Positions 3,346 to 27,887 of a DNA stretch of 38,939 nucleotides are shown piece after piece. The notes below the pieces were generated by a model. The model saw nothing but the letters and a program-made list of their open reading frames with translations, was not told the origin of the DNA and searched no databases. Made by a program: the position numbers and the translations under genes. This DNA comes from Desulfobacterales bacterium (GTDB lineage Bacteria; Desulfobacterota; Desulfobulbia; Desulfobulbales; VMSU01): NCBI GenBank assembly GCA_011330685.1, contig DRPV01000112.1:1-38939 (forward strand). Reading direction: 5' to 3'. Within the stretch, counting starts at the first letter, position 1. Every line of letters starts with the position of its first letter.

Positions 3346-4713
3346 TCATGTGTTACAAACATCCCAATATCCGCCTTTGGCCGGGCCAACCCTCTTTAAG
3401 AGATTTTTTAACCGCAGTTTGGCAATTTGTTTTTCAACCGCCCTGGTACTCAACCCAAGTTCTTGCGCTAACTGCGGGATAGTCATTTGAGGATTATCTG
3501 TCAGTAATGTTAAAATTTTTCCCGAACTTTTTCCCGAACTTTTTCCCGAACTTTTTTGGCTAATTCGATGCACTGTTACGATAAAAATGGCTCCGTCCCG
3601 GTCATCCTGGAAATCAATTTCCGGCCAATTTTCCAAGGCTCTTCTAATACCGGAGCCTATTTCTCTGTATGGCAACAGCCCTTTGGTGATATAAGAGACC
3701 AGTATAGGATTGCGAATATTGGAGTTACCGGTTCGTATTTTATCTACGGTCAGGTTATTAGGTAGAGAACCAGGGCTGATGATTTCAATGCGATTATCAA
3801 AAACAAACAAGCGGATTGGGGCGCTGATCAGGTAGTCACGGTGAACCAAGGCATTAACCAGGAGCTCTTCAAAAACGGATATGGGAATTTCAGGGGTGCC
3901 GGGAGCATTCACCCCGTGTCCGGCCTGTACTTTATGAAGATTCCGCATGATAAAGGCAAGCGAATCGGCAAATATTTTTTCCAGTGGGCCGGAGAAATCT
4001 TCCGTATCCAGATATTTTGTGGAGTGAATGTCGTTGCCGGGATAACGAATTGCCTTGACGATGAATTGCGGTTTAATCCATTCCGGCTTCTCGGTAAACA
4101 GCAACACACCGGCAAGGTTCAGCTCGCCCGTGTCGGTGGCAAGGTTCATATTCTGCAAAAGTGTAAGCAGCTCGCTTGGATCGCTGGGGAATTCCTGTTG
4201 ATAAGTATCACGCAGAAAGTCCCTGAAGCGCAATTTGTCCAGTTTGTCGATACCTGCCTTGGCAGGCAGCTCATCGGCATGGAATTGATCCACACTTTGA
4301 AAGAGACGACGTAGTTCTTCTTTGGAGTTTACCCGCCGTTTATCCGAACCGATTTTCAGCCAGATAACGCCGTTTTTGTCAAAATATGGCTTATCAATTC
4401 CCTTGGGAATGATCAAGACGATAACAAGCCGCTTATTGCCCGCAGCAATATTTTCGGTCTGAACCGTCAAGGGACTCCGTATATGTTGGCTGGCAGCATT
4501 GCTGATCAGTTGATTAATACGGCTAACATCAGAATTTGATAAACCGGGGACAGAGCCATCATCGGCAACACCGATAAAAATATTACCGCCTTCGCCGTTG
4601 GCAAAGGCCGCCATTTCGGCTGCCAGAGAATCGACATTATGCACATCAGCCTTGAATTGACGTTTGCTGTCTTCTCCGAGGGATATCTGTTGATTAAGAT
4701 CTTTTTTATTCAT
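3346..4713 (-). CDS. AlbA_2/Schlafen-like ATP-binding transcriptional regulator with C-terminal winged HTH
   Basis: N-terminal EDSKRQFKADVHNVDSLAAEMAAFANGEGGNIFIGVADDG; ELLVNALVHRDYL and HATPase-like GSGIRRALE; C-terminal TIPQLAQELGLSTRAVEKQIAKLRLKNLL HTH. Confidence 0.85.
   Translation of the reverse strand: MNKKDLNQQISLGEDSKRQFKADVHNVDSLAAEMAAFANGEGGNIFIGVADDGSVPGLSNSDVSRINQLISNAASQHIRSPLTVQTENIAAGNKRLVIVLIIPKGIDKPYFDKNGVIWLKIGSDKRRVNSKEELRRLFQSVDQFHADELPAKAGIDKLDKLRFRDFLRDTYQQEFPSDPSELLTLLQNMNLATDTGELNLAGVLLFTEKPEWIKPQFIVKAIRYPGNDIHSTKYLDTEDFSGPLEKIFADSLAFIMRNLHKVQAGHGVNAPGTPEIPISVFEELLVNALVHRDYLISAPIRLFVFDNRIEIISPGSLPNNLTVDKIRTGNSNIRNPILVSYITKGLLPYREIGSGIRRALENWPEIDFQDDRDGAIFIVTVHRISQKSSGKSSGKSSGKILTLLTDNPQMTIPQLAQELGLSTRAVEKQIAKLRLKNLLKRVGPAKGGYWDVCNT
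3521..3556. repeat. 12-bp tandem repeat (CCCGAACTTTTT) x3 inside the AlbA_2 gene, encoding KSSG repeats
   Basis: Three exact consecutive 12-mers; protein reads QKSSGKSSGKSSGKILTLL. Confidence 0.95.
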
Positions 4714-9703: not shown

Positions 9704-10297
9704 TTAACCGTCTAAACGGTAGAATTCCTCAAGACGAATGATTAAATCATCTTTACCCTCACCGGTTTTGGCCGAGAATAACAGCCGCTCATCCGGTGAG
9801 ATACCAAGTCCGGCGTCCAGAGCCGCGGCGTGACGCAGACGTTGGCCCCGGGGAATTTTATCAATTTTGGTATAAACCGGCAGGGCCTGGACATTAATTT
9901 CCCGGAGCCAGGAGAGCAGTTCAAAATCCAGAGTCTTCAGGGGGTGGCGAATATCAAGAATAACCACTACACAGCGCAGAGAGCGCCTGGTTTCTATATA
10001 ATCGGCGATTAATTGCTGCCAGAGGCCCTTCATGCTGTGGGGAACCTTGGCATAGCCGTAACCGGGAAGATCAACAAGATAGGCCGTTTCGTCCACGAGG
10101 AAAAAATTAAGGCTCTGGGTCTTGCCCGGCCGGGAGCTGACCTTTACCAGTTTACGCTGGTTGACCAGTTTATTGATGAGACTGGATTTTCCGACATTGG
10201 AGCGCCCGGCAAAGGCGACCTCCGGCAGGGTGTCCTCGGGAAGCTGCTTCATGTTAAAGGCACTGGCTAAAAATTTAATCCTGGCGTAATTAAGCAT
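9704..10297 (-). CDS. engB: Ribosome biogenesis GTP-binding protein YsxC/EngB
   Basis: PEVAFAGRSNVGKSSLINKL, SSRPGKTQSLNFF and DLPGYGYAKV motifs. Confidence 0.95.
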   Translation of the reverse strand: MLNYARIKFLASAFNMKQLPEDTLPEVAFAGRSNVGKSSLINKLVNQRKLVKVSSRPGKTQSLNFFLVDETAYLVDLPGYGYAKVPHSMKGLWQQLIADYIETRRSLRCVVVILDIRHPLKTLDFELLSWLREINVQALPVYTKIDKIPRGQRLRHAAALDAGLGISPDERLLFSAKTGEGKDDLIIRLEEFYRLDG

Positions 10298-10394
10298 AGT
10301 TATCCAATTTAGTTTTTAACCTGGCAGACAGCAATCCCTAAAATAACGATAGCGATCAATTAACAACAACCCAACTCCATATAGCCCCATAACT

Positions 10395-10501
10395 GTAAGC
10401 GTTTCAGGGGTACCGCCATGTGCACGTTCCAACCCCCGCGACTACAACGGTATATCGCAGGGGTTGAACCGTGTGCAGGACGGTGTTCATGGAGCGCTTA
10501 C
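10395..10501. repeat. Hairpin element family 1, copy A (GTAAGCG...CGCTTAC)
   Basis: 107-bp imperfect palindrome sharing flanks, stem and loop (TACAaCGGTAT) with 18706-18807; abuts the hisG stop codon. Confidence 0.9.
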
Positions 10502-11373
10502 TAAATAACCTTGGAGAGGGGATACTCTATAATACCCTCAGCCCCGGCCTTTATAAGACGGGGGATAATATCACGCACCTCATGCTCCGAAATAACTGTT
10601 TCCACAGAACACCAGTCTTTGTTATAGAGGTGAGCGATGGTGGGGGCGTTCATACTGGGCATCAGAGAAATAACCTCTTTCAGGTTGTCGTTGGCCACGT
10701 TCAGTTTCAGTCCCACGATGTTGTCGGCCTTCAGGGCACCCTGCAGGAGCATGGCTATATTCTCAATCTTCTCCCGCTTCCAGGGATCATCCCATGATTT
10801 TTTGTTGGCAATAAACTGGGTGTTTGATTCCAGCATTTCATAAATTACCTTCAGGCCGTGGGCGCGGATTGTAGTCTCGGTCTCTGTGACCTCAACAATG
10901 GCATCGGCCAGCTTCGAGACCACCTTGGCCTCGGTTGCCCCCCAGGAAAATTCTATCTCAACATTGATATTTTTATTTTTAAAAAAATTCCTGGTATAAT
11001 TCACCAGCTCTGTGGAAATCTTTTTGCCCTCCAGATCAGCAAGACAGTTAATGTCCGAATCTCCCGGCACCGCCACTACCCAGCGGGTTGGTTTGCGGCT
11101 GACCTTGGAGTAGACCAGATCCGCCACCACCACGATATCGGATTCATTTTCCAGGGTCCAGTCCTTGCCGGTAATACCAGCATCCAGAATCCCATCTTCT
11201 ATGTACCGGGACATCTCCTGGGGCCGGCAGATGGAGCAGGAAAGCTCAGGGTCATCAATTTCGGGGAAATAATTGCGGGAGACGGTTTTGATCTTCCAGC
11301 CGGATTTGTCGAATAACTCAATGGTCGCCTTTTCCAGGCTGCCCTTGGGGATACCAAGTTTTAACAACTTCAT
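10501..11373 (-). CDS. hisG: ATP phosphoribosyltransferase (long form)
   Basis: [32 protein letters not shown] and C-terminal regulatory domain (VKLNV-like [20 protein letters not shown]). Confidence 0.93.
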
Positions 11374-11747
11374 TTTTTATAAACCTCCGCCGGATCAAAT
11401 ACCGGCTCATCTTTAATTTCAAAATCATCATCCCGCAGGCGGCGGAAGAAACAGCTGCGATAGCCTTTATGGCAGGCGGCGCCGCCCTTTTGCTCCACGA
11501 GATAAATTACCGTGTCCTCATCGCAGTCCAGCAGTATTTCCTTGATTATCTGGTAATGTCTGGATGATTCACCCTTTAACCACAGTTTGCCCCGGGAACG
11601 GCTCCAGAAATGGGCCTTGCCGGTGGCAATGGTCTGTTCCCAGGCCTCTTTATTAATATAGGCCAGCATCAGGACTTCACGGCTTGTATAATCCTGGACA
11701 ATTACCGGCAGCAGGCCGCCGCCTTTTTTAAAATTTAATTCGGTCAT
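11370..11747 (-). CDS. hisI: Phosphoribosyl-AMP cyclohydrolase
   Basis: [38 protein letters not shown] and [29 protein letters not shown]; 4-bp overlap with hisG. Confidence 0.93.
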
Positions 11748-11788
11748 CTTTGTCTCCCTGTCCGCCGTTTTCATCGGCCTGTGAGCTT

Positions 11789-11905
11789 GGAATATTGATG
11801 CTATCGTAAAAAGTCGAAAGATCTAATTCTGCCCCTAATGATTTCAAGGGGTTACCTATGGTAAAATTGCCAAATGTGGACTTTTTACCAGAGCATCAAT
11901 ATTGG
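11789..11905. repeat. 117-bp inverted-repeat element with 27-bp arms
   Basis: GGAATATTGATGCTATCGTAAAAAGTC versus GACTTTTTACCAGAGCATCAATATTGG; internal small hairpins CCCCT/AGGGG and TTACC-TAT-GGTAA. Confidence 0.85.
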
Positions 11906-12191
11906 TACCATTTTCCCGGCCGATAAAATATGCTATGCAGGAGGTACGGAATTTACAGTACTCTTCTGCGTGTCGGCAGTGGGCCTGAGCGGTGGACATT
12001 TCCTCTTTGTATTTTTCGCAGATTAATTCCACAATCGTGGTAGAATATGTCCATCAGGAATATTTGTCAAGGGTCGGTAAAGCGCCAAGAGCTGGAATCC
12101 GTTGAGGATGGATTAAATTTTTATTTAAAATTAATCCAAGCTTGGGTAATATAGCCCTTTTTGTAATTTTCTTCCACTCTAAACGCCATTT

Positions 12192-13628
12192 ATGACCGCT
12201 GACAGTCTGCAACAAAGTAAAGATATTCTTACCAATATCCGTGAATATCTGCGCGTGGAGAAGGAGGCACTCTTTAATTTACTGCAAGATCCCCGGATTA
12301 CCGTATGGAAAAACATTGATATCATTGCCATAGAGGGTAACTTAAAGGTGATGGGAATTTCCTCCCAGGAGTTGCAGAAGGCCCTGCAGGGCTATCCGCG
12401 CCAGGCCAAGGGGGCTGCCGTTCACATTAAATTATGTAATAACGAAGTCAGCAATCAATTGGCTGATTTGATTGACTGTCGTAATCCTGAGTCCGCTTTA
12501 CAGGCTGCCCTTCAACTCAAGAAAAAATCCAGGCAGCTTGCCGCTTTGCTGTCTTCGCTGCATCAGCTGACAGATAAGTTCTTCAGCGCTGACCAGAAAA
12601 TTCGCCGGCTCCTTAGTTTTGAAAACATTCTGCCTCTCGCCAGACATATAACCAGTCAACAGCCCCATATATTTAAAGAAGGTCTGGAGGTTTACCGGCT
12701 GCTGACCGTGAGCGCGGAAACCAAGGATGACGGCCCACCCGGTATCGCGGCCTTAAGCAGTCAGGCAGCTCAGCTACAATCCCGTTTTCAGCATGTTGAT
12801 ATTCTTAATTTCCCCCGGCCGGTGGAAGAGATTCTTTATCATTATCTTGAGTTAGGCAGCAAGACTATAGAACAATTGCTGATCTTCAATAACAAAACGG
12901 CGGGTATATTATCCGTGGATCAAGAGAGTATAAAGACTCTTAATCGTCGGTTTCCAGAACTTGCCGCCCTGGAAAATACCGAGGAGTTATTAAATGGAGT
13001 GTTACAGCAGGCTGCCGCTGTTTACCGGTTGTTAAGTGATTTATACCACAAGCGCGAGACGGTTAAGACCTGCGCTAAAATTGCTGAAAGTCTCGAATTC
13101 CTGAATATCTATCACTTGACTCTCAAAAATAAGATTATTCCGGCTCTCCAGGATGAAATCAAAAAAAATAATTCGCCGGTGAACCCTGCTACTTTGAGCA
13201 GCAAAAAGACCAGAGATTTTTTTACCGGCCCTAAGGGTATTATTCGCTCCATGAAACTAATGGTGACCTCACTTAAGGGACATCATGCTCTGAACCAGGT
13301 TGAATTACAGATAATTTTAGAAAAGGCGGTTAACAGCTGTAAAATAACCCACGTCAGCTCAAATAAAGAGGGGCGTGAACTGCGAGATTTTATTGACAGT
13401 TTTATTAACCATTTTTCCAGGCCGTTTCCCTATGATGTAATATTTACATTGGTGAAGCAGACAATTACGGCCTACGGCCAGGCCGCCGAAAAAATGGTTA
13501 AAGACTACGGGGTTAAAAAAAATCTCCAGGATATTGCCTCGGTCAAACTGCCGGCTAGTTTTGAAAAACTGGCGCTGTTGTTAGAAAAAAAGCAAAAATC
13601 TTTTATGAAAGCCAATCAGGGGGGATGA
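12192..13628 (+). CDS. Hypothetical protein, predicted largely alpha-helical
   Basis: 478-aa ORF, first gene of a coupled operon; 4-bp overlap with the FKBP gene. Confidence 0.75.
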   Translation: MTADSLQQSKDILTNIREYLRVEKEALFNLLQDPRITVWKNIDIIAIEGNLKVMGISSQELQKALQGYPRQAKGAAVHIKLCNNEVSNQLADLIDCRNPESALQAALQLKKKSRQLAALLSSLHQLTDKFFSADQKIRRLLSFENILPLARHITSQQPHIFKEGLEVYRLLTVSAETKDDGPPGIAALSSQAAQLQSRFQHVDILNFPRPVEEILYHYLELGSKTIEQLLIFNNKTAGILSVDQESIKTLNRRFPELAALENTEELLNGVLQQAAAVYRLLSDLYHKRETVKTCAKIAESLEFLNIYHLTLKNKIIPALQDEIKKNNSPVNPATLSSKKTRDFFTGPKGIIRSMKLMVTSLKGHHALNQVELQIILEKAVNSCKITHVSSNKEGRELRDFIDSFINHFSRPFPYDVIFTLVKQTITAYGQAAEKMVKDYGVKKNLQDIASVKLPASFEKLALLLEKKQKSFMKANQGG

Positions 13629-14089
13629 AAAAAATAATGAAAGCAGGAATCGGGGATAAGGTCGTTGTGGTCTATGATGGTTTTTTGGAAAATGGCGAGG
13701 TCTTTGAATCTTCAGAGGCCAGCGGGCCGCTGGAGTTTAAAATTGGTATCGGGGAGGTGCTGCCGGCCTTTGAGGAGGCAGTGATTAATATGGAGGTTGG
13801 AGCGACTAAAACCTTTATTATTAAGGCGGCACAGGCCCATGGCCCCGTTAAACCGGAGCTTATTCACCGCATGGAACGTAGTACGCTTCCCGACCACCAG
13901 AACCTGCGCCCAGGTATGGTGTTGGGCATGAAAATTGATCATGAGGGTAATAAACATGAGATTCCGGCCCTGCTCACTGCCTTAGACGAAGAATTTGCCA
14001 CTCTTGATTTTAATCACCCCCTCGCCGGCAAGGATCTAAAATACAAGCTGACCCTGCGGGAGATTAAATCTGCCGCTGCCGGTGGCTGA
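13625..14089 (+). CDS. FKBP-type peptidyl-prolyl cis-trans isomerase, SlyD-like
   Basis: VVVVYDGFLENGEVFESSEASGPLEFKIGIGEVLPAFEEAVINMEVGATKTF and DFNHPLAGKDLKYKLTL. ATG at 13637 is an alternative start. Confidence 0.9.
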   Translation: MKKIMKAGIGDKVVVVYDGFLENGEVFESSEASGPLEFKIGIGEVLPAFEEAVINMEVGATKTFIIKAAQAHGPVKPELIHRMERSTLPDHQNLRPGMVLGMKIDHEGNKHEIPALLTALDEEFATLDFNHPLAGKDLKYKLTLREIKSAAAGG

Positions 14090-14915
14090 CTGTCTGGCGC
14101 AGACGGTTTTGAGCATTGCCGGTTCTGATCCCTCCGGGGGGGCTGGAATTCAGGCTGATCTCAAGACCTTTACCCGCCTCGGAGTCTATGGGGCCGCCGC
14201 CATAACCTGTCTCACGGCCCAGAACACGCTGGGCGTTACAGCCGTGTATGCCCTGGCCCCGGAAATTGTCGCTGAGCAGGTGCGGGTTGTCCTCGCTGAC
14301 CTGCAGGTAAGTCATATCAAAATTGGCATGATTGGCTCGGCGTTGATTGCCTCGGCGGTTAATCAGGTTCTGGATGACTTCCAGGGTGAAATAATCTATG
14401 ATCCGGTTCTGACATCAACCAGTGGTATGCCGTTGTTGGTTTCTGCTGCCGATCTGCCGGATTTAGACGGTCTAATCAGCCGGGTTACGGTATTAACTCC
14501 TAATCTTGTTGAACTGCGGCAGATAAGTGGTGAAGATTGTCTGTCTGCCCAGGATTCTTTGAGCGCGGCGCGGGGGCTTTTGGGGCGCTATCCCCGCCTT
14601 CAGGCCATTGTGATAAAGGGGGGGCATTTTGCCGCTCGCAGTGAGGTGGATAATTATCTGCTCCTTGCCACGGAGCCGCAAGCGCCAATTAAGATCAGTA
14701 TGCCTCGTTTAGCGGTCAAAAATTCTCATGGCACTGGCTGCACCTTTGCCTCTGCTTTTGCGGCTTATCGGCTGTTAGGGGCAGATTACGAACTGGCCTG
14801 CCGCCAGAGCAGCTCCTTTGTCTGGCGCTTGCTGCGGGCGGGTATGAATGTGAATTACGGGCACGGTAGCAGCGGTCTGCCACATCATCTTTTAAAGGCG
14901 GAATCTGGGAGATGA
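14082..14915 (+). CDS. thiD: Hydroxymethylpyrimidine/phosphomethylpyrimidine kinase (GTG start)
   Basis: SIAGSDPSGGAGIQADLKTF, IKIGMIGS and SHGTGCTFASA motifs. Confidence 0.92.
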   Translation: MADCLAQTVLSIAGSDPSGGAGIQADLKTFTRLGVYGAAAITCLTAQNTLGVTAVYALAPEIVAEQVRVVLADLQVSHIKIGMIGSALIASAVNQVLDDFQGEIIYDPVLTSTSGMPLLVSAADLPDLDGLISRVTVLTPNLVELRQISGEDCLSAQDSLSAARGLLGRYPRLQAIVIKGGHFAARSEVDNYLLLATEPQAPIKISMPRLAVKNSHGTGCTFASAFAAYRLLGADYELACRQSSSFVWRLLRAGMNVNYGHGSSGLPHHLLKAESGR

Positions 14916-15118
14916 GCAAAGAAAAAAGATCATACAGTCAGCGGCGGCGGGGCGGCAAAAATTTTGTCTGCCATTGCTGCCGCCGGGAGCTGCCTTTCTG
15001 TTGGAACTGCCCCTGTGGCTTCCAGATCTGCCCAGAGTGTTTTACGGAAAACAAATGGGGACTCACCAACGGCCCCACCTGGGTGTGCCCTGATTGCGGC
15101 CGGATCCGCATGATGTGA
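14912..15118 (+). CDS. Cys-rich zinc-ribbon small protein
   Basis: 68 aa with 10 Cys (VCHCC...FCWNCPCGFQICPEC...WVCPDCG); ATGA overlap with thiD. Confidence 0.75.
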   Translation: MSKEKRSYSQRRRGGKNFVCHCCRRELPFCWNCPCGFQICPECFTENKWGLTNGPTWVCPDCGRIRMM

Positions 15119-15125
15119 GAGAAAA

Positions 15126-15893
15126 ATGCTGCTAACCATTGACATAGGAAACAGTCATACCGTTGTTGGACTCTTCGCGGCGGAAGGTCTGCTTTACAAC
15201 TGGCGTATCCAGACCAATCACCGGGCCACGGCTGATGAAATAGCTGCCTGCCTGCATGGCCTGTTCTCCATGCGGGGTATACATTTTACCGCTCTCACCG
15301 GCATGGTAATAGCCAATGTTGTGCCACCCCTCGAAGAGAGTTGGCTGAATTTTGCCCGTCAGCTTTCACTCACCCCCCTGATGGTGACTAACAGGCTTGA
15401 TCTTGGCATACCAATTTGCACCGCTGACCCTTCGGAAGTGGGGGCGGACAGGCTGGTAAATGCCGTGGCCGGTTTTCATAAATTCAGTCAGGCCCTGATT
15501 ATTGTTGATTTCGGCACTGCCACCACCTTTGATTGTGTCTCTGAGCGGGGGGAGTATCTTGGCGGTGCCATTGCCCCAGGTCTTGCCATTTCTTTAGAAG
15601 CCCTCGGAGTCAGGACTGCGCGTCTTCCTCAGGTACACCTCAAGCCGCCTGAAGCTGCCATTGGCCGCGACACGGTAAGTGCCATTCAATCAGGAGTCAT
15701 GTTTGGTTACAGCGGTCTCATTGAGGGGCTGATAAAACGCTTAAGCTCCGAGTTCACAGGCGGCCAGCCGTTGGTTATGGCCACCGGCGGCATTGCCCGT
15801 CTCATCGCTCCTTTAACCCCGGCTGTCAAACATATTGAGCCTCTGCTTACTCTCGAGGGGCTGAAACTGATTTATGAACGCTGCGCCTCTTAA
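15126..15893 (+). CDS. coaX: Type III pantothenate kinase
   Basis: LLTIDIGNSHTVVGLF, GADRLVNAVAGF, VDFGTATTFD and GGAIAPGL motifs. Confidence 0.95.
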   Translation: MLLTIDIGNSHTVVGLFAAEGLLYNWRIQTNHRATADEIAACLHGLFSMRGIHFTALTGMVIANVVPPLEESWLNFARQLSLTPLMVTNRLDLGIPICTADPSEVGADRLVNAVAGFHKFSQALIIVDFGTATTFDCVSERGEYLGGAIAPGLAISLEALGVRTARLPQVHLKPPEAAIGRDTVSAIQSGVMFGYSGLIEGLIKRLSSEFTGGQPLVMATGGIARLIAPLTPAVKHIEPLLTLEGLKLIYERCAS

Positions 15894-16800
15894 AACTATT
15901 ATCCCTCCGGCCCTGCGGCGGGGCGACCATGTTGCCCTTATCGCTCCTTCCGGGCCGCTTAACGCCGATATAAACATCGGGATGCAATGGTTGACAGATG
16001 CCGGTCTGCGGGTGGTTTGTGCCGCGGACATCAGGCGGCGGCACAATTATCTTGCTGGAGTAGACAGCAGGCGTTTACAGGAACTGCATGGCTGCTTTAG
16101 CGATACCAATATCAAGGCTGTTATGGCGGTTCGGGGTGGCTTTGGCTCTGCCCGTCTTCTGCCTTTTGTTGACTTTGAACTAATTGCGGAAAATCCTAAA
16201 ATCCTGCTTGGTTTTTCCGATCTCACCGCCCTCTTGAACGCCATAACCTTTAAAACCGGCCTGATTACCTGGCACGGCCCTATGCTGTCAACCATTATGC
16301 GGACTGGGCGCCCGGCTCTGGACAGCTCTCTCGTGGTTCTCGGCTCTTGCCGTCCCTCCCCGCTAAAGGTAAAGGGGCTGGAGATTATCCGCCCCGGCCA
16401 GGCGGCAGGCCGTCTCATGGGCGGTAATCTCACCACCCTTGTTCATCTTCTCGCGACCCCCTATGAACCAAACTGGCAACAGACAATCCTCTTTATTGAG
16501 GATATCAATGAGCCGCCCTATCGGGTTGACCGCCTGTTGACTCATCTCCAGCAGGCGGGGCGGCTTGAGCAGGTGGCCGGGGTGATAGTGGGCGGTTTTT
16601 TGAATAGTGATCTGCGAACGCTGGCCGATATTGAATTAATCTGGCAGCGGGTCTTGGAGCTTACTGGAGAGGGGGTGCCGGTCTGGGCCAATTTCCCGGT
16701 CAGTCATGGGATTGATAATGTCATGCTGCCGGTTGGAGCGTCTGTTTTAATGGACTCCGGGGCCGGAGTGCTGCGTTTTCAGGAAGATTGTCTAACTTGA
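15874..16800 (+). CDS. LD-carboxypeptidase (S66 family)
   Basis: ALIAPSGPL, AVRGGFGSARLLPFVDFELI, ILLGFSDLTALLNA and GNLTTLVHLLATPYEP motifs. Confidence 0.92.
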   Translation: MNAAPLKTIIPPALRRGDHVALIAPSGPLNADINIGMQWLTDAGLRVVCAADIRRRHNYLAGVDSRRLQELHGCFSDTNIKAVMAVRGGFGSARLLPFVDFELIAENPKILLGFSDLTALLNAITFKTGLITWHGPMLSTIMRTGRPALDSSLVVLGSCRPSPLKVKGLEIIRPGQAAGRLMGGNLTTLVHLLATPYEPNWQQTILFIEDINEPPYRVDRLLTHLQQAGRLEQVAGVIVGGFLNSDLRTLADIELIWQRVLELTGEGVPVWANFPVSHGIDNVMLPVGASVLMDSGAGVLRFQEDCLT

Positions 16801-17165
16801 TCCGAGGTGATTTCCCGTTTTTTTATCGGCCCGGCTTTGACTCGATCCAAAAGCCCGGCCAGAGCCGCCTTGACATTCTCGCGAATATCACCTGCTACCA
16901 CTAAAAAGAGCAGATCATCACCGGGGGCGAAGGTTCCAGTCAGGGCCTCTACTTTAATATCAAAAATTCCCGGCCACTTAAGAAACTCCTGCCGGATTTC
17001 CTCGATCTTTTTCTGATCAGGACTAACCTCAAGGGCAATTACTCCCTGCCGATCCTGTCGTGACCAGCCCCGTACCGTGCCGTTATGTATCAAAATCATA
17101 CCAACATTCTCCGCAAAGCCCGGCTGCCGCTTCAGATCCGCGATTGTCTGTGAAATATCCATCAC
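16779..17165 (-). CDS. MoaE-like molybdopterin biosynthesis protein
   Basis: VGMILIHNGTVRGWSRQ...VVAGDIRENVKAALAGLLDRVK resembles MoaE-family proteins; convergent 22-bp overlap with the S66 gene. Confidence 0.65.
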   Translation of the reverse strand: MMDISQTIADLKRQPGFAENVGMILIHNGTVRGWSRQDRQGVIALEVSPDQKKIEEIRQEFLKWPGIFDIKVEALTGTFAPGDDLLFLVVAGDIRENVKAALAGLLDRVKAGPIKKREITSDQVRQSS

Positions 17166-17304
17166 CCCTCCTTTGAGTACAAACCTCGTGAAAATTTGTT
17201 TGTCAATTGTGTGTAAACGTACTATCCATGGGCTATTTGGTTATGATTGTACATACCGCCCTGCGGGCGAGAATAAACGGCGAGCTTCACCATACATTTT
17301 CTTT

Positions 17305-17384
17305 GAACCGCAGAATATCGAACAAGGAATGTCGAAGTTCGAAGTTTTTAACTTTTGCGGTTCAATATTCCTTGTTCGATATTC
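17305..17384. repeat. Interleaved inverted-repeat element (A B A' B')
   Basis: GAACCGCA (17305-17312)/TGCGGTTC (17356-17363) and GAATATCGAACAAGGAAT (17313-17330)/ATTCCTTGTTCGATATTC (17367-17384). Confidence 0.85.
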
Positions 17385-17475
17385 GATATTTAACGGCTGT
17401 AAGAGATTTCCTGTGAAGCAAACAATAAAAATTTTGATTTTCCGATACATGGCCATAGTTCGGTCTAAGTTGTCC

Positions 17476-18192
17476 TCAGGCTTGCCCCTTTTCCATTAGA
17501 GCGGCCACCTCATCGTGCAGGCGGCGGGCCAGCTCCTGCTTGTCGCTGACCTTAAAATTACTGGTGGCAATGGGGCGGCCCACATTGATAGTGACTCGTC
17601 CCGGACGGGCTAATAATTTGCCCTTGGGTAATATGTCGTGAGTACCGCAAATGGCTACCGGCACTATGGGAACCCCGGATTTAATCGCTAAAACCATGCC
17701 GCCGGTTTTGAATTCCTGCAACTTGCCGTTCGGGCTCCTCGTCCCTTCTGGGAAGATAATAACCGAGGCCCCGGCGGCAATACGTTCCGCTGCCGCGTAC
17801 AGGCTTTTAATCGCCTCCCGGCCTCGCGAACGGTCAATGGGGATATAACCCGCCTGCCGCATACCAAGACCGAAAACAGGGATCTCAAATAATTCTTTTT
17901 TGGCCAGCCAGCGGAAATCAATATTCAAATATCCCTGCAGGGCAAATATATCAAATTGACTCTGGTGATTGGCGGCCAGAATATGAGGCTGGCCGGCAGT
18001 TAGGTTCTCACCCCCGCGCAGCGTTACCCGCATGCCGGCCAGCCGAGAAATAATTCTGGCCCAATAACGGGGTAAAAATTGTACCCTGGCACAGGATACC
18101 CGAAAGATGATTGTGGCGATGATGGCTATGATACAGGCCACAACCGTCAAAACCGGGGTCATTATAAGGGTAATTACTCCTCTGATATTCAC
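17476..18192 (-). CDS. plsC: 1-acyl-sn-glycerol-3-phosphate acyltransferase
   Basis: NHQSQFDIFAL (NHxxxxD), FPEGTRSPNG and VPIVPVAI motifs. Confidence 0.92.
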   Translation of the reverse strand: MNIRGVITLIMTPVLTVVACIIAIIATIIFRVSCARVQFLPRYWARIISRLAGMRVTLRGGENLTAGQPHILAANHQSQFDIFALQGYLNIDFRWLAKKELFEIPVFGLGMRQAGYIPIDRSRGREAIKSLYAAAERIAAGASVIIFPEGTRSPNGKLQEFKTGGMVLAIKSGVPIVPVAICGTHDILPKGKLLARPGRVTINVGRPIATSNFKVSDKQELARRLHDEVAALMEKGQA

Positions 18193-18223
18193 TGTGTCTC
18201 CATATTAACATGAGGGTTTTGTG

Positions 18224-18330
18224 GTAACCGTTCAGCTGCACCCCATTTTCGTCTGTTTCGGAGTCTACGCTTACCTGGACGGTTACAGCTCACAGTTAAG
18301 GGCAATTTGTTGCCTTGGCTGAACGGTTAC
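18224..18330. repeat. Family 2 element (GTAACCGTTCAG...CTGAACGGTTAC), short copy
   Basis: Near-identical flanks to 27718-27887 but missing the right half of the internal hairpin; same 44-bp tail (CTGgACGGTTAC-32 bp-CTGAACGGTTAC). Confidence 0.9.
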
Positions 18331-18370
18331 GTTTTGTGTTTAAGAGTGAAGAGCAGTTGACGCGTTGTTT

Positions 18371-18390
18371 GCGAAAATTATTCTGCCCCC
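18371..18390. repeat. Half copy of the GGGGACAGAATAATTTTCGC palindrome arm
   Basis: GCGAAAATTATTCTGCCCCC matches the reverse complement of the 1134 left arm at 19/20 positions. Confidence 0.65.
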
Positions 18391-18552
18391 GAATTGCAAG
18401 AGTCCTCTTCGGTTAGAGTTTTTAATTGCTTTTTTAAAAAAAGCCAAGTCGTTTTCTACGATCGTTGGTTTTGTTCCCAAAAACTCATTACCAAGCCGGT
18501 GAAGAGATAGTGGGGATTTTTTGCTATTTTCGTCTAAAATTAAAGCGGTAAA

Positions 18553-18570
18553 ATGTTTCACGTGAAACAT
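18553..18570. promoter_or_regulatory. parS: parS centromere site
   Basis: ATGTTTCACGTGAAACAT, a perfect 18-bp palindrome containing canonical TGTTTCACGTGAAACA, ~265 bp upstream of parA. Confidence 0.95.
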
Positions 18571-18656
18571 CCGTTCTTGACATGCTCTTTGCGCTGTGTT
18601 TCTTTATCCATACTCTTAGTTTACAGTTATGCGTTTAGGGGAGTTTATTGCTCCTG

Positions 18657-18668
18657 CTGAACGGTTAC
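18657..18668. repeat. Solo family 2 end CTGAACGGTTAC
   Basis: Exact 12-mer match to the family 2 terminal repeat. Confidence 0.7.
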
Positions 18669-18705
18669 GTTTGCGGTAAACGAATAATAAAACACCCCCC
18701 GAGGT

Positions 18706-18807
18706 GTAAGCGTTTAACTGCCGCCATGTGCACGTTCCAATCCCGCGATTACATCGGTATATCGCGGGATTGGAACGTGTGCAGGGTGGTGTTCATGGAG
18801 CGCTTAC
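18706..18807. repeat. Hairpin element family 1, copy B
   Basis: Perfect 19-bp stem CACGTTCCAATCCCGCGAT/ATCGCGGGATTGGAACGTG with 11-nt loop, plus outer 7-bp GTAAGCG/CGCTTAC. Confidence 0.92.
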
Positions 18808-18834: not shown

Positions 18835-19638
18835 ATGGGACAGAAAAAAAACGCTAAGGTGTTCGCCATGGCCAATCAAAAGGGCGGGGTGGGAAAGACC
18901 ACGACTACGGTAAACCTGGCCTCCGCCCTTGCTCTTCTTGGCCTTAAGGTGCTGGTAATTGATTCAGACCCTCAGGGTAATGCCTCAAGCGGTCTGGGGA
19001 TAAACGCCCAACAGATGGAGCATCATCTTTATCACTGCTTTACCAACGAGGCTGATGCCGGGCAGGCTATAAGACAGGTGGACAAAGAGGGGAACCTGTT
19101 TATTCTTCCCACTCATGTCGATCTCATCGGCATCGAGGTGGAGTTGATGTCGGCGGTAAAGAGAGAGCGCTTCCTCTCCGACCTCCTGGCTCCGCTCTTG
19201 GGGTCATATGAAATAATTCTCATTGACTGCCCGCCATCCCTGGGCTTATTGACCATTAATGCCTTAACGGCGGCCGATGCCATAATTATTCCCCTTCAAT
19301 GTGAATATTACGCCCTGGAGGGGTTGAGTCAATTGGTACGTACCATCAGGCTGGTAAAAAATTCATATAACCATAAACTCTTTATTGAAGGGATTGTGCT
19401 CACTATGTATGACAGGCGTAACCGCCTTACCCATCAGGTTGCCAAAGAGGTAAAACAGCATTTTAAAACGCAGGTATATGATACGGTAATTCCAAGAAAT
19501 GTTCGTCTTAGCGAATGCCCCAGTCATGGGCTGCCGATTCATCAATACGATAAGCATTCTACCGGGGCCTTAAGCTATATGAATCTCGGTAAAGAGTTTA
19601 TTGAACGTTTAAGGGAGAGAAATCATGGCAACTCATAG
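18835..19638 (+). CDS. parA: Chromosome partitioning ATPase ParA/Soj
   Basis: MANQKGGVGKTTTTVNLASALA, DSDPQGNASSGLG and IDCPPSLGLLTINAL. Confidence 0.97.
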   Translation: MGQKKNAKVFAMANQKGGVGKTTTTVNLASALALLGLKVLVIDSDPQGNASSGLGINAQQMEHHLYHCFTNEADAGQAIRQVDKEGNLFILPTHVDLIGIEVELMSAVKRERFLSDLLAPLLGSYEIILIDCPPSLGLLTINALTAADAIIIPLQCEYYALEGLSQLVRTIRLVKNSYNHKLFIEGIVLTMYDRRNRLTHQVAKEVKQHFKTQVYDTVIPRNVRLSECPSHGLPIHQYDKHSTGALSYMNLGKEFIERLRERNHGNS

Positions 19639-27592: not shown

Positions 27593-27717
27593 CTCCACCT
27601 CCAATAAAAAAGTTTTAGTACTGGACAATTATTTTTTTTTTATATAGCCTGAATTATAAGCTGTAACTGTTCTCCCGGCACCCAACAACACGATTTTGGT
27701 GGCTGAACAAATTATCT

Positions 27718-27887
27718 GTAACCGTTCAGCTGCACCCCATTTTCGTCCGTTTCGGAGTCTTCGCTTTCCTGTCCACCTCACGTACGGGGTGTACAGACTC
27801 GGTGGCCAAAACGAACGAACCTGGAGCACATCTGAACGGTTACAGCTCATAGTTAAGGGCAATTTGTTGCCTTGGCTGAACGGTTAC
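27718..27887. repeat. Family 2 element, long copy
   Basis: Perfect 12-bp inverted ends GTAACCGTTCAG (27718-27729)/CTGAACGGTTAC (27832-27843) enclosing further inverted blocks TTCGTCCGTTT/AAACGAACGAA and GAGTC/GACTC, then a 44-bp tail ending in a second CTGAACGGTTAC. Confidence 0.92.

Follow-up and report, generated by a model that had tools for sequence, protein, structure and literature searches.

The enterobacterial ERIC sequence is an imperfect palindrome similar in size to the element described here and occurs in many intergenic copies, and the Correia element (NEMIS) of Neisseria has TA as its target duplication. In the passages of a review considered here (PMC10969869), ERIC is described as inserting at the 3' ends of genes and affecting mRNA levels, and Correia as a MITE of ~100-150 bp whose hairpin is present in transcripts and processed by RNase III; both are precedents there for MITE hairpins acting in mRNA. 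The same review passages present QMITE2 of Coxiella burnetii as a MITE with 7-9 bp duplications, 23-29 bp terminal inverted repeats (TIRs) and a strongly folding transcript, and mention for it no covarying core across many genera. For the IS66 family, a published TIR begins GTAAGCGTCCGGCGAAC and another end is GTAACCGTCCGGGCA (PMC12888890). The element that we characterize here differs from ERIC, as compared by description, in having 8-bp duplications and IS66-type ends and in having only its right end in the hairpin; from Correia in its ends and target duplication; and from QMITE2 in its host group. Like the REP/BIME sequences with RAYT, it places a hairpin behind stop codons, but it is longer, carries target duplications and has no link to Y1 genes. 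It resembles IS66 in its 8-bp target duplication, in ends that start with GTAAGCG or GTAACCG and in a terminal 24 bp identical at up to 19 of 24 positions, whereas it is 150 bp long without tnpA/B/C genes, compared with ~2.4 kb, and the IS66 copies scanned lack its hairpin core. MITEs are a known kind, within which we regard this element as new because of its order-wide covarying core, its one-sided hairpin and its oriented docking; no IS66-linked MITE of this kind was found in the open-access papers searched, ISfinder lying outside that search.

The window, the whole stretch of 38,939 nucleotides analysed here (contig C112 of a draft genome of 2.89 Mb), holds two copies of the element, A and B. 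An earlier note on this DNA had described two hairpins of ~105 bp at 10395-10501 and 18706-18807, with particular shared ends, a compensatory stem change, an insertion matched in both arms of copy A and an outer stem rich in G-U pairs on the + strand. Both hairpins and all of these features are real, but the proposed unit was too short on the left. When copies are aligned with their flanks, a conserved left extension of 46-47 bp, consisting of GTAAGCGATCAATTAACCACACCC and a variable spacer, precedes the GTAAGCG at which the hairpin begins, and the distance from this outer end to the inner GTAAGCG is 45-48 bp in 96 of the 105 copies measured. The hairpin is therefore the right two thirds of an element of ~154 bp and is one-sided, in that the right end forms one arm and the opposite arm begins with the inner GTAAGCG. 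The two true ends of the element, its TIRs, are identical at 19 of 24 bases. As the duplications lie at the outer ends and the extension is on the left, copy A spans 10348-10501 on the + strand (154 bp) and is complete, with outer left end (TIR at 10348-10371, + strand, family consensus GTAAGCGATCAATTAACCACACCC), spacer, inner GTAAGCG, hairpin (10395-10501, + strand) and right end (TIR at 10478-10501, - strand, family consensus read inwards GTAAGCGCTCCATGAACACCACCC); it matches the covariance model over its full length (model 1-153). Copy B (18676-18807, + strand, 132 bp, with its hairpin at 18706-18807) is a shortened relic of an older subfamily.

An exact 8-bp duplication flanks 61 of 106 copies, and a duplication with at most one mismatch flanks 76 of 106 (13 genomes), compared with an expectation of 1.2 when the flanks of different copies are paired. 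Exact duplications are 8 bp long in 61 copies, 7 bp in 3 and 9 bp in 1, and the 8-bp targets are AT-rich in the middle. When the inner GTAAGCG is taken as the end, none of the 106 copies has flanks agreeing within two mismatches, which rules out the 105-bp hairpin as the transposing unit. Copy A lies between AAAATAAC (10340-10347) and TAAATAAC (10502-10509), which differ at one position, and in a congener (G002) the orthologous gap between the hisG and GTPase genes lacks the element and holds a single TAAATAAC, the empty site for copy A. Copy B has no recognisable target duplication in its flanks. We also considered whether the target is the loop of a pre-existing terminator or palindrome; this idea was rejected, as complementarity between the flanks was not above the shuffled expectation.

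Copies of the element are numerous. Sequence searches found at least 40 in its own genome (copy B as query gave 55 matches at ~40 distinct places), and 21 of the 258 genomes from the order contain its right-end 20-mer with up to two mismatches. The own genome has 91 matches to this 20-mer and G251 more than 250; these matches include truncated ends and 80-bp hairpin-less derivatives as well as full copies, and the reversed 20-mer gave no match in the listed genomes. The hairpins are therefore not due to chance. The further copies that the earlier note called for were also recovered by a covariance-model search, which identified full members in G001-G004, G010, G014, G020, G102, G149, G165, G244, G250 and G251. 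Relatives gave up to more than 140 model matches, some of them reverse-strand duplicates; because a weak match (E ~1e-12 or above) may be the same hairpin read on the reverse strand, raw match counts are not copy numbers. The family occurs in many genomes of Desulfobulbales type and spans several families of one order: among 395 genomes drawn across the phylum, matches were confined to G000 (the own genome) and G020, both within the order, and a plasmid collection gave no match.

The earlier note had recognised neither a known RNA family nor a transposase. The former judgement holds, as Rfam yielded no gathering-level match and, at a relaxed E-value, only sub-threshold matches to microRNA hairpins; what the note did not see is that this is a transposable element with 8-bp duplications and IS66-type ends. 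IS66 loci of the order (PF03050) have 8-bp duplications, exact at L301, L302, L303, L308, L309, L313, L314 and L323, and TIRs such as GTAAGCGCTCAATGAACCCC and GTAAGCGCTACGTTAACCACACC. Element ends (GTAAGCG...) and full IS66-family termini agree within the same order: the family consensus ends are identical to the order's IS66 termini at 15-19 of 24 positions (best 19), while 100000 random 24-mers reach at most 15 of 24 against the element ends. When the covariance model was run over the IS66 loci, it gave only four matches at E<=1 (0.006-0.6), two of which start exactly at IS66 termini mapped together with their duplications (L314:3714 and L303:2565); a third, L316:2566, begins GTAAGCGCCATGTAAACCACAC, an IS66-type GTAAGCG end at which no TIR pair was resolved. 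The hairpin itself was absent from the IS66 copies scanned in this way, so none of these copies could have given rise to the element by simple internal deletion. Among the IS66 loci of the order, we found no autonomous IS66 with identical ends, and the IS66 transposase domain (PF03050) was detected neither in the own genome nor in the high-copy genomes G004, G010, G014 and G251, all draft MAGs, in which the IS66 source may be extinct or unassembled. As no resident enzyme was found, the IS66 link is based on the ends and the duplication length, and with these it is well supported. The element is a MITE: it is short and multicopy, lacks coding capacity, and has TIRs, a target duplication of fixed length and an empty site. 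Its IS66-type ends and the shared 8-bp duplication suggest that it is probably moved by IS66 transposases; judged from these sequence features, its class is IS66-type by ends and duplication, which is not the same as a proven IS66 derivative.

Insertions show an orientation bias with respect to genes. Among 112 unique sites, with genes called as longest ORFs, 52 have a stop codon no more than 30 bp from the right end, compared with 13 for the left end (p = 1.2e-6). In tandem contexts, both genes read right to left through the element in 49 cases and the other way in 14, and the median gap from right end to stop codon in the right-to-left contexts is 4 bp. Because the right end sits against the stop codon, transcription from the neighbouring gene mostly reads the minus strand, on which the fold is weaker. 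At copy A, the HisG gene (10501-11373, - strand; ORF with Pfam HisG and HisG_C) ends in a stop codon (10501-10503) created at the junction with the right end of copy A, and a GTPase gene (9704-10297) lies on the other side. Copy B ends 28 bp before the start of parA (18835-19638, + strand; ORF and Pfam) and is therefore probably within the parA leader. A perfect parS-like site, TGTTTCACGTGAAACA, is located upstream of parA at 18554-18569, placing copy B between parS and parA; a related MAG (L038) has the same parS-like site upstream of parA and lacks copy B. The nearest named relative of this ParA is from a Desulfurivibrionaceae MAG.

Copies A and B are more stable than dinucleotide shuffles on the + strand (z = -6.6 and -11.3) and on the - strand (z = -6.4 and -7.9), and in 106 distinct copies 95.2% of the cells in 42 pairs are standard pairs. 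Pairing persists through two-sided changes: there are 490 doubly changed paired cells, compared with 153 in shuffles, which retain relatedness on an alignment fitted to the model. The covariation score for the same 106 copies is 0.365, compared with 0.174 for shuffles with relatedness retained and 0.04-0.08 for slid structures; covariation is thus strong, as a comparison rather than a formal test. With RNA parameters, all 106 copies fold more stably on the + strand (mean -69.5 kcal/mol, compared with -48.4 on the - strand), and with DNA parameters 104/106 do so; the outer pair of helices and the middle helix together contain 696 G-U cells but 31 A-C cells. The expected + strand preference of the fold is therefore present; the expectation of an RNA read from that strand agrees poorly with neighbours that usually transcribe the minus strand. 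Single-stranded DNA, or constraints on the sequence of the two arms, could also account for the bias.

We estimate at roughly 78% the probability that the element is a MITE moved by IS66 transposases, docking behind stop codons and keeping its fold. An IS66-type DDE transposase made elsewhere would recognise the outer left GTAAGCGATCAATTAACCACACCC and right GTAAGCGCTCCATGAACACCACCC and insert the element into AT-rich 8-bp targets, which would then be duplicated, in keeping with the duplications and the similarity of the ends; the inner GTAAGCG serves as the start of the opposite hairpin arm and, as its flanks indicate, never as an end. Most elements are found immediately after a stop codon, their right end facing the gene. 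They might build up at such sites if, in this orientation, the mRNA tolerates a folded 3' tail or benefits from it; insertions in the opposite orientation might be removed because the + fold, being much more stable, interferes with transcription of the gene that follows. By analogy with ERIC, Correia and REP repeats, this account of accumulation is the one that we find most likely, although the odds are somewhat against it. For the orientation bias itself, which may stem from target choice or from later selection, we favour selection against a + fold transcribed into the downstream gene, whereas the minus fold may be tolerated as an mRNA 3' tail; we infer from this arrangement that the element might have a role in mRNA 3' ends.

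The strand preference would also be expected if the element encoded a functional RNA on the + strand, either small or cis-acting, with selection on its fold and spread by transposition. Strong covariation, the better + fold in every copy, the G-U excess in the outer and middle helices and an ATTATAC..GTATAT loop region conserved in very different members all agree with such an RNA. However, it is usually the minus strand that is transcribed from the neighbouring gene; a candidate conserved promoter in the left spacer was rejected, none being evident by eye in an alignment in which the spacer is variable; hairpin-less 80-bp derivatives with perfect duplications exist; and recent within-genome changes are only mildly biased (86 G-U compared with 52 A-C). 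We therefore consider this RNA rather improbable. Matched changes could also arise without selection if, during replication, one hairpin arm serves as the template on which the other is repaired (quasipalindrome correction), with recombination between copies. The insertion matched in both arms of copy A, copies with one arm from each variant and hence C-C and G-G mismatches (for example, L003 and L012), and the near balance of 80 G-U and 55 A-C cells in the inner stem agree with such correction, and the matched changes of the inner stem could have this origin. As an account of the whole element it is unlikely, as it leaves unexplained why the G-U pairs of the outer stem are kept rather than corrected to Watson-Crick pairs, their ratio of 472:25 to A-C, and the fact that members whose ends differ still have the fold.

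In another reading, the element is a REP-type palindrome that travels in single-stranded form, mobilised by a Y1 (RAYT) transposase needing the + hairpin. This would be compatible with the + preference under DNA parameters, the 3'-end location typical of REPs and the occurrence of Y1 transposases in the genus. Nevertheless, 8-bp target duplications are not a Y1 product, G004 and G010 are rich in copies without a Y1 gene, and the element does not flank Y1 genes at 8/10 loci checked; we rejected this reading, which has very little chance of being correct. A further variant retains the MITE and its DDE transposase but supposes that one end must fold strand-specifically for propagation or tolerance. 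We hold this to be quite unlikely; if true, the covarying core, which is found across families within the order and in members whose IS66-type ends differ, would act as a structural 'passport' for docking behind stop codons in a single orientation. For the IS66-moved MITE that we prefer, the family is a large natural data set with which selection on a folded transposon end might be told apart from selection on the 3' tails of host mRNAs, and it explains a class of hairpins that would otherwise be mistaken for non-coding RNA genes.

Diverged members carry other ends (GTAACTGATCACGGG, GTAACCGTTCACCAG) but keep the order of parts, and several of them (L204, L207 and L217) have exact 8-bp duplications at the ends predicted by the model. 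The hairpin-less 80-bp derivatives include L295, with the perfect duplication TTTCGTTG, and L151, with CTTTTTGT. In L295 (G000:C83, ending at locus position 1064), L151 and L149, from three genomes, the deletion is at nearly the same place (GTTTCAGGG/GTGTTCATGG), and two of the three have perfect 8-bp duplications. A 183-bp version, L028 (G000:C152), has a longer, different left end, GTAAACGCTCCATAAA, and a perfect duplication, AAATCAGC, which suggests left-end exchange.

The window contains other repeats. A second family, with ends GTAACCGTTCAG / CTGAACGGTTAC, occurs at 18224-18330, 18613-18668 and 27711-27887; its ends are similar to IS66 ends of the GTAACCG type, and in the congener G003 (L328) the site of copy A holds sequence similar to this family. 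Two near-perfect inverted repeats, 17313-17336 / 17361-17384 (GAATATCGAACAAGGAAT...) and 11791-11815 / 11879-11903 (AATATTGATGCT...), lie outside the MITE family. A 12-bp tandem repeat, AACTTTTTCCCG, is present in three copies at 3513-3556. Elsewhere in the genome, at L341:220-312 (G000:C310), a 31-bp direct repeat lies close to a Y1 transposase gene, with its three tandem copies identical.
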